Assembly (NCBI GenBank): GCA_020833345.1
Contig: JAJHQM010000005.1
Span: 1 to 45,704 of the forward strand
DNA: 45,704 bases
Reading direction: 5' to 3'
DNA from: Ignisphaera sp.
Lineage (GTDB): Archaea; Thermoproteota; Thermoprotei_A; Sulfolobales; Ignisphaeraceae
Under the pieces are notes generated by a model, which ran no database searches, had not been told where the DNA came from, and saw nothing but the letters and a program-made list of their open reading frames with translations. Within the stretch, counting starts at the first letter, position 1. The number at the start of each line of letters is the position of its first letter. The position numbers were made by a program, and so were the translations under genes. Below are positions 8,307 to 41,892 of the stretch, piece after piece.

Positions 8307-8888
8307 TTGGTTTCAGTAAAGATTTTTATATATACTAAATCTGAAGACCTTCCTGATGCTTGTACAGCTGAAAAACTGATAAGGCATGGTCTTGCTGAGA
8401 GAATTTCTAGGTATAATGACATTCCTCCATGTTCGATAGTTCTAAACCCCATGGCTTTAACATATTTGAAGCACTCTGATAGAACCTACATAGAGAGATG
8501 TGGTCTTACCGCGTTGGACGTGTCATGGAAGCGAGGTATTAATGAACTTAAAAGAATTACACGTGGTTATCAAAGAGTATTACCAATTCTAATAGCGACA
8601 AATAATGTAAACTATGGAAGACCATTTAAATTGAGCACTGCTGAAGCTTTAATAGCTGCTTTCATGATAACGGGATTTTATGAAATTGCTTTAAAAATAG
8701 CATACCTCTTTAAATGGGGACCAACATTTATTCAACTGAATAGTGAGCGCTTAAAGCTTTACTCACAAGCAAAGTCGGATGAAGAGATGGAGCAAATACA
8801 GCTTAAGTTATTTGGTCTAAATTATCATAAGGACACAAAATTGTTACCTCTTCTTCACAAAATTGTTGAAAGTGATGAAGTATATTAA
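8307..8888 (+). CDS. tsr3: 16S rRNA aminocarboxypropyltransferase Tsr3 (DUF367)
   Basis: CTAEKLIRHGLAERI...LNPMALTYLKHSDR...GLTALDVSW...RVLPILIATNNVNYGRPFKLSTAEALIAAFMITGF. Confidence 0.93.
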   Translation: MVSVKIFIYTKSEDLPDACTAEKLIRHGLAERISRYNDIPPCSIVLNPMALTYLKHSDRTYIERCGLTALDVSWKRGINELKRITRGYQRVLPILIATNNVNYGRPFKLSTAEALIAAFMITGFYEIALKIAYLFKWGPTFIQLNSERLKLYSQAKSDEEMEQIQLKLFGLNYHKDTKLLPLLHKIVESDEVY

Positions 8889-11022: not shown

Positions 11023-11342
11023 GGCCCCTGGCTCGCGGTAACCCACTTTCTGTACTTAGGCTACATTAGGCTAAGCGGTTTTAACCTCCTCACGTAGCCT
11101 TCATTGGAGGTTGCCTTACTCCCCAGAGGTTGGCCGTTTCACTGCAACTGCAAGTCTCGTCAGCGGATTAACTACCCCCTAGTTACCTAGGGGGTCTTAC
11201 CACCTCATCCTCATTAACTTGCAGACATGTCGTTTCTGTGCCAGAGCCTAGGGCATTACCCTAGCCCCTTGCGGGGCTCTGGGCTACGCGGAGGGTGGTG
11301 TTTCCTCGGAGCATTCCCGTGGTAGCCCGCGAGCCAAGGGCC
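11023..11342 (-). ncRNA. rnpB: RNase P RNA
   Basis: Minus strand GGCCCTTGGCTCGCGG...CCGAGGAAACACCACC... (CR-I-like) ...ACAGAAAGTGGGTTACCGCGAGCCAGGGGCC (CR-V-like); ends form a 16-bp P1 helix. Confidence 0.92.
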
Positions 11343-19866: not shown

Positions 19867-19970
19867 GCCGGGGTGGCCGAGCGGTCTAAGGCGTCGGGCT
19901 GCAGCGGGTTCCGGCTCCTTGCCGCCTGTCGAGACCCGATAACTCCCGGGTTCGAATCCCGGCCCCGGCT
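19867..19970 (+). tRNA. tRNA-Cys(GCA) with ~29-nt intron; 3' CCA encoded
   Basis: GCCGGGG...TCGGG CTGCAG-(cgggttccggctccttgccgcctgtcgag)-A CCCGA...CCCCGGC T CCA. Confidence 0.88.
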
Positions 19971-21446: not shown

Positions 21447-23378
21447 TTAAATGTTATAGGCAAGGGTGTAGGAATCAAGTAAATTAGGTACTAGTACTAT
21501 AGCGTCTCCTATCCCTAGATACCTCTTCTTTCTTTCAATTTCGCGAGATAAATTTAAAATAGCGTTTTTCTCTCCGTGAACAAGCACTATTTTTGATGGT
21601 TTTGGTTGCATATGTTTAATGTAATCTAATAATTGCGTCTTGTCCGAATGTCCTGAAAAACCTTCTATTGAGTAAACCTCCATTTTTATTCTAATTATCT
21701 CTACTTTACCTTTTTCATTTACAAAGGCGATTTCTCGAGCTCCATCTCTTATTCTCCTTCCCAAAGTTCCCTCAACCTGGTAATTTACAAATACCATTGC
21801 ATTATTTGGATTTGGAGCCATTAATTTGAAGTACTCTACGGCAGGGCCGCCTGTAAGCATACCGGAAGTTGCAATTATTATTGCGGGCTCTGAGCTTTCA
21901 ACTATTTCTGTTCTAGGTTCTCTCCCCTCTACCCTAATAAAGGTCTCGAAATCAAATGGATTTTCATCATTCTTAAGTCTTTTTCCTAACTCTTTTGACA
22001 GCAATTCTGGGTAAGAAGTATGTATTGCTGTAACCTCATGTATCATGCCCTCAATATAAACACTCATTTTTGGTAATCTACCCTGTCTCATTGCATCAGC
22101 TAGTATTACCATAATTTCTTGCGCTCTTCCAACACTTAGTGTAGGTATGAGTACCTTCCCTCTTCTATTATAAGTATCGAGGATTATTTTAAGTAACTGA
22201 TTTTCTGCTTCTTCTCTCTTAGGCTGCTCTGTTGCTCCATAAGTGCTTTCCATTATAAGTGTGTCTACTCTCGGAAATTCATAATCTGCTCTATCAAGAA
22301 GCCTCGTTTTTCCAAACTTCACATCTCCTGTGTATACAATGTTGTGAAATCCGTTGCCTATATGTAAATGAACAATTGCAGAACCAAGTATATGTCCTGC
22401 GTTGTACAGTGTAAGCCTAATGTCAGGAGCTATGTCTGTAACAACATTATACTTTAGTGTTATTGTATGTAAGAGCATTTTTTCAACATCAGCTAATGTG
22501 AATGGAGGCTCCGAACCCTCTCTTTCAGCAATCTCTAGGAAATCCTTTAATAAAAGCGTTGTAAGGTCTCTCGTTGCTTCAGTCATGTATACAGCTCCCT
22601 TAAAGCCGTATTTAAAAAGATATGGCACAAGCCCTGCGTGATCTAGGTGTGCGTGTGTTACAATAACTGCATCTAAATCTTCAGGATCTATGCCAAGCAG
22701 GTCTATTCTTGGAAAGGCATTGGAAAGTAATCCCCTACCAGGATTGAGGCCAAAATCTAATAACAGTTTTGATTCGGCAGTTTCGACCAGTATAGCAGAT
22801 CTCCCAACTTCTTGTGCTGCCCCAAGAAAAGTAACCCTGGTGAAATTATTACCATTCTTAGCCAAGAGCACATCTCTATGAATAGCCTCTCCCAAGCTCC
22901 TTAAGAACCTAAGCCTGTAGTCACTATTTGCTAAGTAGCCATGAATTATTTCTTCAAAGATTTTCGATCTCATCGGAGGAGCTCTAATTACTTTAGGCCT
23001 CCAACCTGTATGTACAAGAATTTGCTTAGCTTTTGCTTCAATGATTTGAGGATTTTTTGCTTTTATAACTACTTCTCCTAATACTTCATCAAATTCAATA
23101 CTTTCTACACCAGCTTCTGGGGGCACCAAGTTTTTAAGGTATTCTCTGACTTCTTTTTCAGGCTTCCTAATTGAGGGATCCGTTCTTATAACTATCCTTT
23201 TCTTTATTAATTTAGCTATATGGGAAGCTATATCTCCTTGATCAAGTAAAAACTGAGGATTTCTAACATAAACAGCTATTTCAGGTCCTTCAAACTCTAA
23301 TCTAGTCAGCTGTGCTGTAGGAGGTAGCAGCTTTATTATTACAGATCTTATATAAGATAGGTCTATGTTGAAGCTCAT
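21447..23378 (-). CDS. KH-domain/beta-CASP ribonuclease aCPSF1 (transcription termination factor FttA)
   Basis: Two N-terminal KH regions; THAHLDHAG, GHILGSA, YTGDVKFGKTRLLDRA, SGHSDKTQLLDYI. Confidence 0.96.
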   Translation of the reverse strand: MSFNIDLSYIRSVIIKLLPPTAQLTRLEFEGPEIAVYVRNPQFLLDQGDIASHIAKLIKKRIVIRTDPSIRKPEKEVREYLKNLVPPEAGVESIEFDEVLGEVVIKAKNPQIIEAKAKQILVHTGWRPKVIRAPPMRSKIFEEIIHGYLANSDYRLRFLRSLGEAIHRDVLLAKNGNNFTRVTFLGAAQEVGRSAILVETAESKLLLDFGLNPGRGLLSNAFPRIDLLGIDPEDLDAVIVTHAHLDHAGLVPYLFKYGFKGAVYMTEATRDLTTLLLKDFLEIAEREGSEPPFTLADVEKMLLHTITLKYNVVTDIAPDIRLTLYNAGHILGSAIVHLHIGNGFHNIVYTGDVKFGKTRLLDRADYEFPRVDTLIMESTYGATEQPKREEAENQLLKIILDTYNRRGKVLIPTLSVGRAQEIMVILADAMRQGRLPKMSVYIEGMIHEVTAIHTSYPELLSKELGKRLKNDENPFDFETFIRVEGREPRTEIVESSEPAIIIATSGMLTGGPAVEYFKLMAPNPNNAMVFVNYQVEGTLGRRIRDGAREIAFVNEKGKVEIIRIKMEVYSIEGFSGHSDKTQLLDYIKHMQPKPSKIVLVHGEKNAILNLSREIERKKRYLGIGDAIVLVPNLLDSYTLAYNI

Positions 23379-24043
23379 GATGATGTCCTGCTAAGGAATT
23401 TCTTAATCTCCTCTACTGTAAATGTATATTCTCGGTAGAAATCCTTTCCTATAGTTACAACATCAACACCTATACCTCCAGTAAAAATATCTCTAGCAAT
23501 AGCTGATGCTATAGCTTTAACAGCTAATTTTATGGAGTTTTCTATACTTAAATCAGGCTTGTATTCAGCTTCTATAATTCCTATTGCAGTAGGTGAACCT
23601 GAACCTGTTGCTGCAATGTTTTCTTCTGTTACATCTCCATAAGGTTCTATGACAAATATTTTTGGGCCTTCATAGTGATCATAACCTCCTAAGATTAGCT
23701 GGACAATGAATGGAAAGTACTTATATTCATTTAGAACTAGACCTAAAAGAGATGCCATGCCTCTTAAGGACATGGGCCTGCCATTGAGTATTTGATAGTA
23801 GTGAGCTTCAGCTCTTATGAAATCAGCAAGTGCTTGTGCATCTGCTACAAGCCCTGCAATAGTCATAGCGATGCGTTCATTGACCTTAACGATCTTTTTA
23901 ACATTTTTATGCGCTATGTAGATACCTGATGTTGCCTTCTTATCTGAAGCTAACACAACATAATCTTTAAATACTATACCTATTGTAGTGGTACCTCTGT
24001 AGGCTTTCTCTAGTATCTTTGTTTCAAATTCTAAATACTTCAT
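23375..24043 (-). CDS. psmB: Proteasome beta subunit
   Basis: YRG|TTTIGIVFKDYVVLASDKKATSG: propeptide, catalytic Thr1, Lys33. Confidence 0.95.
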   Translation of the reverse strand: MKYLEFETKILEKAYRGTTTIGIVFKDYVVLASDKKATSGIYIAHKNVKKIVKVNERIAMTIAGLVADAQALADFIRAEAHYYQILNGRPMSLRGMASLLGLVLNEYKYFPFIVQLILGGYDHYEGPKIFVIEPYGDVTEENIAATGSGSPTAIGIIEAEYKPDLSIENSIKLAVKAIASAIARDIFTGGIGVDVVTIGKDFYREYTFTVEEIKKFLSRTSS

Positions 24044-24524: not shown

Positions 24525-25586
24525 TTGTTCTACCCTCATGAAATAACTTTGCCAAAGAAAGTTATTGTGGGTCTAGAGCTGTTAGAAAAAGTAGGGCTGT
24601 ACATAAAAGCCATTGATGCGATGATTAGCAAAGCCATTATTGTATCTGGTGCCAGTGAAACAGCAGCATATGCTAAGCTTGTTTCTGACGCCCTTCAGCA
24701 ATGCCATATAGAAACATGGACAGTACCCATATCCTCATCTACAATGAGCGAAGTGGAAAAGACTATCAACATTGCTAAGGATGTTGCAGCTAATGTAATT
24801 ATAGGTGTTGGGGGTGGAAAGGCTATAGACGTAGCTAAGTATTCTTCTTATATGCTCTCTAAACCTTTTATTAGTGTTCCCACTTCGCCTTCTCATGATG
24901 GAATTGCATCACCTTTTGCCTCTATAAAAGATGTGGGCAAGGTGACCTCTGTAAAAGCATCTACACCAATACTCATAATAGCAGATGTAGCTGTAATGGC
25001 AAGAGCTCCTAGAAGAAATATTGTATCTGGTTGTGGGGATTTATTAGGGAAGTTCTCAGCTGTTTTAGACTGGAAACTAGCACACAAATTGAGGGGCGAG
25101 TATTACGGAGATTATGCAGCATCCCTTTCACTTCTCTCAGCACAGCATATAGTCAAATATAGCTCTATGTTCAAGACAAAACAAATACCTACAGGAGCAG
25201 TCAGAATATTGGTAGAAGCTTTGATAAGCAGTGGTATTGCCATGGCTATAGCAAATTCTACGAGACCTGCTAGTGGTTCTGAGCATTTAATAGCGCATGC
25301 AATAGATTTGGTAGCGGGTTACCCGGCTTTGCATGGTGAAGAGGTTGGAATAGGAGCCATAATAGCGCTGTATCTTCATGGAAAAAATTGGCGTAAAATA
25401 AAAGGTGTACTTGGTGAAATGGGAGCTCCAACAAAAATAACACAGATTAATGTTTCTAAAGAGCAAATGGTAAAAGCGCTCACAATAGCGCATAGCATAA
25501 GGCCAGAGAGATACACGATATTAGGTGAGAAAGGGTTTAGTGAAGAAGCAGCGGAAAGGTTGATAGAGGTACTGGAATTAGCATGA
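24525..25586 (+). CDS. egsA: sn-glycerol-1-phosphate dehydrogenase
   Basis: VIIGVGGGKAIDVAKYSSYMLSKPFISVPTSPSHDGIASPFASI; GSEHLIAHAIDL; LHGEEVGIG. Confidence 0.95.
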   Translation: MFYPHEITLPKKVIVGLELLEKVGLYIKAIDAMISKAIIVSGASETAAYAKLVSDALQQCHIETWTVPISSSTMSEVEKTINIAKDVAANVIIGVGGGKAIDVAKYSSYMLSKPFISVPTSPSHDGIASPFASIKDVGKVTSVKASTPILIIADVAVMARAPRRNIVSGCGDLLGKFSAVLDWKLAHKLRGEYYGDYAASLSLLSAQHIVKYSSMFKTKQIPTGAVRILVEALISSGIAMAIANSTRPASGSEHLIAHAIDLVAGYPALHGEEVGIGAIIALYLHGKNWRKIKGVLGEMGAPTKITQINVSKEQMVKALTIAHSIRPERYTILGEKGFSEEAAERLIEVLELA

Positions 25587-25616: not shown

Positions 25617-25669
25617 ATTCAGTTCAGGCCGGCAACATCATAACTCAGCACGGAGAAAAATCATCATTT
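25617..25669 (-). ncRNA. Box C/D sRNA
   Basis: Minus: ATGATGA-TTTTTCTCCGTG-CTGA-GTT-ATGATGT-TGCCGGCCTGAA-CTGA; complete C/D'/C'/D with 12-nt guides, directly after the FKBP stop codon. Confidence 0.88.
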
Positions 25670-25671
25670 TA

Positions 25672-26373
25672 TCACTTTGACATTCTCTCAAACCTTTCTA
25701 TATATGTTACAGTATCATATTTCCCAATGTATTTATATATTTCTTCGGCTACGATGGCTTTAACTAATTGCAAATCTCTGTCGAGTAAGATTTCCTTGGG
25801 CATCTCTATTGTAACACTATTGCTATTTTGATCTATGAATACCTTAAATCTGTCTATAGGTATCCTCCTGTATCTCCTATGAAGTAGGTACTTTATCTTT
25901 TCAGCGTCATCATCTAAAATCTTAACCACTTTGTATCTACATACAAAAGTCTTTCCAGCAAGTGGATGATTAAAATCTATTAGTACCCTACCTCCAGTAA
26001 TAGCTTTTACAACGCCTACCTGTCCTCCAACTTCAACTGTTTTACCAACCTCAGGCACAACATTGTTCCTAAGAAGCTCTCTAATACTGAGTATTTTTAC
26101 CTTAGAAGGATCTCTCATTCCATAAGCTTTTTCCGGGGGTATTTCGATTTCATATTCTTTTCCAGCTTCAGCAAAATTCTCAACATGTTCTTCAAGACCC
26201 CGTATAATTCTATTTTCACCGACAATAATGAGTAAGGGTTCATATATTTTATCAGCTTCCCATTTATTCTCTTTCTTGGCAATATCCTCTACTGTTGTAT
26301 CTATCAGCTCACCTGTATCCTTACTTCTCATAACATAATCTATCAATACAAAGCTATTTTTTTGTATAGCCAT
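25672..26373 (-). CDS. FKBP-type peptidyl-prolyl isomerase (SlyD-like)
   Basis: GLEEHVENFAEAGKEYEIEIPPEKAYGMRDPSKV; GGRVLIDFNHPLAGKTF. Confidence 0.94.
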   Translation of the reverse strand: MAIQKNSFVLIDYVMRSKDTGELIDTTVEDIAKKENKWEADKIYEPLLIIVGENRIIRGLEEHVENFAEAGKEYEIEIPPEKAYGMRDPSKVKILSIRELLRNNVVPEVGKTVEVGGQVGVVKAITGGRVLIDFNHPLAGKTFVCRYKVVKILDDDAEKIKYLLHRRYRRIPIDRFKVFIDQNSNSVTIEMPKEILLDRDLQLVKAIVAEEIYKYIGKYDTVTYIERFERMSK

Positions 26374-39912: not shown

Positions 39913-41139
39913 GTGATGAGTGAGAGAATATATATTGTAGATACTCCAATAGGAATTTTCGCTGTTCAGGAATCAGGTGAAATAATTGATCGAGCACTTT
40001 ATCCAAAAGATCTAGGTAAAGTTGTGGAAGAGCTTTTATTACTTAGTGAGAGCAAAGAATGTAGTGCATTACTTCAATTGTTAGAATCCTTAAAGAACAA
40101 GTTGAGTATAGGTAATGTGGTATTAGTATTTGAGGATTCAGAACTATCAAGAAGAGTAAGTGAAAGGGGCTTTAATGCGACAGCTGAAGCTGGCAACAAT
40201 GTAGCTAAAAAAATACGTAAAGAATTACCACAGTTAATAGTTAAGTTGGGATTTTTTGGATCTGAGGATGAATATAAAGAGTTTGTTCATGCAATTTCGC
40301 TAGAGCTTACTAGGAGAAAGCTCAGAAAGTTTGCCCAAAAAAGAGACTTGCTTGCAGTACAAGCAATCAGGGCTATAGATGATATAGATAAAACGTTAAA
40401 CCTCCTTGTGGCAAGGCTAAGGGAATGGTACAGCATTCATTTTCCAGAATTAGATGACCTTGCTAAAGAACATGAAGAGTACATACGAGTTGTAGCAAAT
40501 TTAGGATTTAGAGATAACATATCATTTGAAATACTCTCGAAGTTAGGTTTTAGTGAGGGAAGAGCTAAGAGAATAGCGGAGGTAGCTAGGAAGAGTATAG
40601 GAGCAGAGCTTTCTGAAATGGATTTATCCATGATACAGACTGTTGCAAACATATGGCTTGAATTACTTGAGCTAAGACGAAAGCTTACAGATTACATAGC
40701 ACAGGTTATGAAAGAAGTAGCACCAAACGTAACGGCGCTTGTAGGACCATTATTAGGTGCAAGGCTTTTAAGTCTTGCAGGTAGCTTAGAAGAGCTTGCA
40801 AAGCTGCCTGCAAGTACAGTTCAAGTTCTTGGTGCGGAGAAGGCACTTTTTAGAGCCTTAAGAACAGGTGGAAAGCCGCCAAAACATGGTGTTATATTTC
40901 AGTTTCCAGAGATCAGAAAAGCACCAAAATGGCAGAGAGGTAAGATTGCTAGGGCATTAGCAACAAAGCTAAGTATAGCAGCACGAATAGATTACTTCAC
41001 AGGTAGATATGTGGGTGATGAGCTTAAGAAAAAGTTGATTGAGAGAATAGAGGAGATAAAGAAGCTTTATCCAAAACCACTAAAGAAAGAAGTGAAAAGA
41101 GAAGAAAAGGTTAAGCGTGGAAGGGAGAGAAAACAATAA
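39913..41139 (+). CDS. nop5: C/D sRNP core protein Nop5 (Nop56/58)
   Basis: LREWYSIHFPEL, VGPLLGARLLSLAGSLEELAKLPASTVQVLGAEKALFRALRTGGKPPKHGVIFQ. Confidence 0.97.
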   Translation: MMSERIYIVDTPIGIFAVQESGEIIDRALYPKDLGKVVEELLLLSESKECSALLQLLESLKNKLSIGNVVLVFEDSELSRRVSERGFNATAEAGNNVAKKIRKELPQLIVKLGFFGSEDEYKEFVHAISLELTRRKLRKFAQKRDLLAVQAIRAIDDIDKTLNLLVARLREWYSIHFPELDDLAKEHEEYIRVVANLGFRDNISFEILSKLGFSEGRAKRIAEVARKSIGAELSEMDLSMIQTVANIWLELLELRRKLTDYIAQVMKEVAPNVTALVGPLLGARLLSLAGSLEELAKLPASTVQVLGAEKALFRALRTGGKPPKHGVIFQFPEIRKAPKWQRGKIARALATKLSIAARIDYFTGRYVGDELKKKLIERIEEIKKLYPKPLKKEVKREEKVKRGRERKQ

Positions 41140-41172
41140 AAATTTAAGTTCTGATTGTAACATAATATTACG

Positions 41173-41892
41173 GTGTATCGCAAAATGTCATACTTATTAC
41201 CGGTAAACATATATGAACACCACAAGTATCGCAATGTGTATATTGTAGAACTTGAGGATGGCAGTACTAGGCTTGCAACAAAGAATCTAGTACCTGGTAA
41301 GAGGGTGTATGGGGAACATTTATTTAAGTGGAAAGATGAAGAATTCAGGGAATGGAATGCATATAGAAGTAAATTAGCAGCCGCTCTCATAAAAGGTTTA
41401 AAGGAGTTGCCCGTAAGTGAGGGGCAAAAAATTCTGTACTTAGGTGCAGGTTCTGGCACTACGGTGAGTCATGTATCTGATTTAATAGGGCGAAGAGGTA
41501 CTATATATGCTGTAGAATTTGCTCCACGAGTGATGAGAGAACTCATTGTGGTAGCTGATGATAGACCTAACATCATACCAATATTAGAAGATGCTAGGTT
41601 TCCAACTAGGTATAGAATAATGCTAGAGGAGGTCGAAGGCTTGTATGCAGACATAGCGCAACCTGAGCAGGCCAGTATTGTCGCAGATAATGCAGACATG
41701 TTCTTAAAGAATGGAGGCTGGCTCCTATTAGCAATAAAGGCAAGGAGTATAGATGTTACGGCAGAGCCTAGTGAAGTTTATAAAAGAGAGATAGACACAC
41801 TAATTAGGAGAGGATTTGAAATAGTAGATGTTGTACATTTAGAACCTTTTGACAAAGACCATGCAATGGTTTACGCAAGGTTTAGAAAGTAA
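41173..41892 (+). CDS. flpA: Fibrillarin (rRNA/tRNA 2'-O-methyltransferase)
   Basis: ILYLGAGSGTTVSHVSDLIGRRGTIYAVEFAPRVMREL; IAQPEQASIVADNADMFLKNGGWLLLAIKARSIDVT. Confidence 0.97.
   Translation: MYRKMSYLLPVNIYEHHKYRNVYIVELEDGSTRLATKNLVPGKRVYGEHLFKWKDEEFREWNAYRSKLAAALIKGLKELPVSEGQKILYLGAGSGTTVSHVSDLIGRRGTIYAVEFAPRVMRELIVVADDRPNIIPILEDARFPTRYRIMLEEVEGLYADIAQPEQASIVADNADMFLKNGGWLLLAIKARSIDVTAEPSEVYKREIDTLIRRGFEIVDVVHLEPFDKDHAMVYARFRK

Follow-up and report, generated by a model that had tools for sequence, protein, structure and literature searches.

A conserved box C/D sRNA behind an FKBP gene of Ignisphaera with a predicted methylation target in 23S rRNA

Introduction

The closest described counterparts of the RNA reported here are the archaeal dual-guide box C/D sRNAs (Dennis et al. 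2015, PMC4644070; Breuer et al. 2021, PMC7994747), with which it shares the box order C, D', C', D and guides of 12 nt. For most archaeal C/D sRNAs, processing out of a longer transcript has been reported, and TATA-like motifs for only ~20% of their genes (PMC7994747). About one quarter of these genes overlap the 3' end of an ORF, with the stop codon lying in box C in nearly half of those cases, and a box C that overlaps or abuts the upstream stop codon is a documented habit (PMC7994747). The guides themselves have been reported to evolve at an accelerated rate (PMC7994747), and empty or defective D' guides have been described (PMC4644070).

Here we describe a locus within a 45,704-nt stretch of DNA from Ignisphaera sp. 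(hereafter the window), which very probably encodes a box C/D methylation-guide sRNA of ~50-60 nt, with a D guide directed to the G of 23S rRNA that aligns with E. coli position 2034, a D' guide that makes a further contact or is drifting, and a likely origin in the FKBP transcript, at its 3' end. That the RNA is transcribed, processed, assembled into a complex and active in methylation is what we infer for this system. The sRNA is a new representative of a well-known family, many members of which likewise sit behind protein genes; nothing fundamental sets it apart from the known dual-guide sRNAs, although its own D' guide has no clear target, and it leaves the picture of how C/D guide RNAs work unchanged. 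What the Ignisphaera lineage gains is a guide RNA that is conserved and has a clear predicted 23S target, together with a small natural series in which one sRNA and the same protein gene lie one ahead of the other, overlap, or have been separated by departure of the sRNA. Such a series is useful for studying the movement of guide RNAs and their use of transcripts that belong to other genes.

Results and Discussion

Architecture of the locus

Direct reading of the minus strand after the TGA stop codon of the FKBP gene gives TAAA, ATGATGA, TTTTTCTCCGTG, CTGA, GTT, ATGATGT, TGCCGGCCTGAA and CTGA, the dual-guide arrangement claimed in the original prediction. The core of the sRNA, from box C to box D, occupies 25619..25667 (-), as indicated by this reading, a motif scan, simulations and orthologues, and the mature RNA probably extends a few nt beyond the core at either side. 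In 5' to 3' order on the minus strand, box C (ATGATGA, 25661..25667), whose TGATG is invariant in an alignment of eight species, is followed by the 12-nt D' guide TTTTTCTCCGTG (25649..25660), box D' (CTGA, 25645..25648), a GTT spacer (25642..25644), box C' (ATGATGT, 25635..25641, also placed by the alignment), the 12-nt D guide TGCCGGCCTGAA (25623..25634) and box D (CTGA, 25619..25622). These elements correspond to the ordered C (RUGAUGA), D', C' and D (CUGA) boxes that characterize archaeal box C/D sRNAs, with guides in the range of ~10-14 nt.

When the window was scanned with a regular expression for the C-D'-C'-D order, this locus was the sole match, and a slightly stricter pattern matched once in the window and in none of 400 second-order Markov versions of it. 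A loose motif match at 8353-8398 (+), whose guide is 8 nt long and whose C and C' boxes are poor, is probably due to chance. A search of the window with Rfam at gathering thresholds returned RNase P RNA and tRNAs only, with no match to a C/D family; Rfam is limited to curated families, and a match to it is not a defining trait of C/D sRNAs. The predicted single-strand fold of the free sRNA was no more stable than those of shuffled sequences, using a program that does not model k-turn motifs.

Conservation within the family

Of the 18 genomes of the family, 15 carry an orthologue of the sRNA. Relatives with public names include Ignisphaera sp. RSNS13 and I. aggregans SZUA-1435. Eight copies, all with the D-guide core GGCCTG, are linked to the FKBP gene (our own genome, G002, G004, G010, G013, G014, G015 and G017), and the remaining seven lie away from it (G001, G003, G005, G006, G008, G009 and G012; E 2.7e-12 to 1.5e-8). 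Since the sequence-only search model was built from the eight linked copies and the seven unlinked ones were absent from it, detection of the latter is not circular. Across the alignment of eight species GGCCTG and box D are invariant; in G014 and G015 box D' and the D'/C' half are degenerate.

The model search found no orthologue in G007, G011 or G016, the assemblies of the last two being incomplete. The best match in G007, a near-complete genome of the same genus, lies at G007:C1:413011-413070 and is C/D-like with other guides, suggesting that the site served by the D guide may be unmodified in this organism or served by another RNA. In other families of the order the model gave only weak matches, none with an E better than 6e-4, which is what unrelated C/D boxes would be expected to give. 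When the C' box, the D-guide core and the D box were combined in a pattern of their own, a single genome outside the family matched it.

The D guide and its predicted target in 23S rRNA

A scan of 16S and 23S rRNA for targets showed perfect pairing between the 23S sequence CAGGCCGGCA and the guide at positions 3-12 upstream of box D, with 10 uninterrupted bp in the N+5 register characteristic of archaeal C/D sRNAs. The original prediction had called for complementarity of at least 9 nt to a stable RNA, which this pairing provides, and its 12-nt D target, TTCAGGCCGGCA, is present as CACAGGCCGGCA, so that 10 of the 12 nt hold and the full 12 do not. The whole assembly contains the target 10-mer at two places, antisense to the sRNA and in the 23S gene; the match in stable RNA is thus unique in the assembly. 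The stretch GTGCACAGGCCGGCATCCCCCCGTAGGGAGAGAAGACC is common to our own 23S rRNA and that of six relatives of the same genus. In our own assembly the 16S gene and the 5' part of the 23S gene were not found, and the sequence beside the 23S match reads N.

From the N+5 rule and alignment to E. coli, the predicted Gm is the equivalent of position 2034. The D guide would most likely pair with CAGGCCGGCA and direct 2'-O-methylation of this G. Because the 15 guides share descent and are not independent trials, the relevant control is a ranking of this site against all others, to which the same guides are exposed, and for this ranking we took every in-register site in the 16S and 23S rRNA of the same-genus relative G003. 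The 2034-equivalent site ranked first of ~4,570 rRNA sites for the D guides of 13 of the 15 species, and it was first in the aggregate by a wide margin (-302.9 versus -255.9 for the runner-up). In the close relatives G002 and G004, where the D guide is one base longer, the site ranked 13th and 7th, respectively. No relevant report of a modification at G2034 came up in a search of the literature, and neither 2034 nor 2054 is mentioned in the text of PMC4644070.

The D' guide

For the D' guide, the intact target that had been predicted, CACGGAGAAAAA, was not found in the rRNA examined, and the candidates are partial: 23S positions 2054 and 2022 (E. coli numbering) and a site in 16S rRNA. Position 2054 led the aggregate over all 15 species narrowly (-149.3 versus -147.0, one mismatch allowed), but in the genus-only aggregate other sites were ahead of it and no site won. 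Position 2022 was the best D' site for G003 and the third for G009, and the 16S site fits those D' guides that contain CGCTCC. With these sites in competition and others leading within the genus, we claim no D' target; D' complementarity is expected of dual guides and is not required of an archaeal C/D sRNA.

Slightly short of an even chance, in our estimate, is the alternative that the D half alone guides methylation, with the D' half left as an orphan or limited to a weak, chaperone-like contact with rRNA. The D' guides vary by species, no site wins within the genus, box D' is degenerate in two of the linked copies, and empty or defective D' guides have precedent (PMC4644070). Nevertheless, most species share a D' core, TTC.CTCC, and 2054 does top the all-species aggregate, if narrowly. 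In the reading that we prefer, the D' guide would either contact nearby rRNA, with 23S 2054 as the best candidate over all species and 2022 as the alternative, or drift; the sequence comparisons describe a guide that appears to be drifting between species.

Linkage to the FKBP gene and origin of the transcript

The gene ahead of the sRNA (25672..26373, -) encodes a 233-aa peptidyl-prolyl cis-trans isomerase with Pfam matches to FKBP26_IF (3e-12), FKBP26_C (8.6e-12) and FKBP_C (6.9e-07), so that an FKBP26-type annotation fits it better than the name slyD used in the original prediction. Its TGA stop lies at 25674-25672 and box C begins at 25667, which places the sRNA immediately downstream, as had been noted, with a gap of 4 nt where 2-5 nt had been given. 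On the other side, a convergent gene of the iron-containing alcohol dehydrogenase family (glycerol-1-phosphate dehydrogenase-like; 24525..25586, +) has its stop 32 nt from box D.

The FKBP gene was found in nearly all relatives searched, and the position of its stop codon relative to the sRNA shifts among them. A gap separates the two in G010, G014 and G015. The TGA stop falls inside box C in G002 and G017, and in G004 the first base of box C is the last base of the TAG stop. In G013 (locus G013:C123:122-183) the FKBP frame stays open across box C, the D' guide and box D' and reaches its stop inside box C', which means that C-terminal residues of the protein are encoded by sRNA sequence. These four copies, in which the stop codon meets box C or box C', resemble the C/D sRNA genes that overlap ORF 3' ends (Tripp et al. 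2017, as cited in PMC7994747), from which the locus in the window, with its stop 4 nt before box C and no overlap, differs. Since both overlap with ORF 3' ends and processing from longer transcripts have been reported (PMC7994747), the genomic context of the sRNA is an ordinary one. Among the relocated copies, that of G006 overlaps the 3' end of another gene, whose stop falls in box D', and that of G005 sits after the same gene, which by eye looks like a diphthine synthase gene. The FKBP tree was poorly resolved and required four changes of linkage label; an ancestral FKBP linkage followed by several relocations would be a plausible history. A further idea is that the FKBP 3' end might serve as an inherited dock for the sRNA, along which the boundary between codon and guide slides and through which the supply of the guide would depend on how a protein-folding gene is expressed. 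Stops found before box C, in box C or, with the D' guide serving as FKBP codons, in box C' (G013) are what suggest this idea, which we regard as doubtful.

By analogy with the processing of other archaeal C/D sRNAs, release of the sRNA from the 3' end of the FKBP mRNA is plausible. The best upstream TATA-like score in the window is unremarkable, being equalled by 9% of the 8-mers in the locus, and the scores of most FKBP-linked copies are likewise unremarkable, whereas TATA-like sequences that score better, among the top 2% of the 8-mers of their loci, precede the relocated copies of G001, G003, G008 and G009. Although the test is crude, this difference mildly favors a transcript-derived sRNA where the FKBP linkage is kept.

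The same guide RNA could instead be made from a promoter of its own within the 3'-terminal part of the FKBP coding sequence, independently of the FKBP mRNA. The sequence ACATATATAG, ~31 nt ahead of box C, is an A/T-rich stretch, and the better sequences at the four relocated copies suggest that the RNA can probably be expressed alone. However, that stretch doubles as code for conserved residues (TYIE or IYIE), and given the ordinary score in the window and the small fraction of archaeal C/D sRNA genes with TATA-like motifs, we consider a separate promoter unlikely. We take it as most likely that the sRNA matures from the FKBP transcript, at its 3' end, with bound proteins shielding the RNA from trimming.

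Finally, although UGA stop codons do look like parts of C and D boxes, a functionless chance run of such motifs in a 3' UTR is extremely improbable, since conservation across the family, with several of the 15 copies unlinked from the FKBP gene, makes a chance origin untenable, and the register-exact, assembly-unique complementarity to 23S rRNA and the absence of the stricter pattern from all simulated windows speak against it as well. The box C/D identity proposed originally is thus supported by architecture, family-wide conservation and the 10-bp in-register match to 23S rRNA.

Protein partners and other genes in the window

As in organisms with known archaeal dual-guide C/D sRNAs, genes for the protein partners are present, and both are within the window. 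The gene for Nop5, the scaffold of the C/D complex, was recognized by its Nop domain part (40375..41052, +; PF01798, E 3.3e-76), and that for fibrillarin, the 2'-O-methyltransferase, by PF01269 (41212..41886, +; E 3.7e-103). The two genes adjoin each other (40375-41886, +), ~15 kb from the sRNA.

Other genes were observed in the window. An archaeal RNase P RNA gene lies at 11027-11338 (-) (Rfam RF00373, 169.7 bits). A tRNA at 19867-19970 (+) was called by Rfam and not by ARAGORN, and its length of 104 nt suggests an intron-containing tRNA gene. At 21447-24043 (-), a proteasome subunit gene is followed by one that encodes the transcription termination factor FttA, with KH, beta-lactamase and beta-CASP domains, and the two overlap by a few bases (23375-23378).
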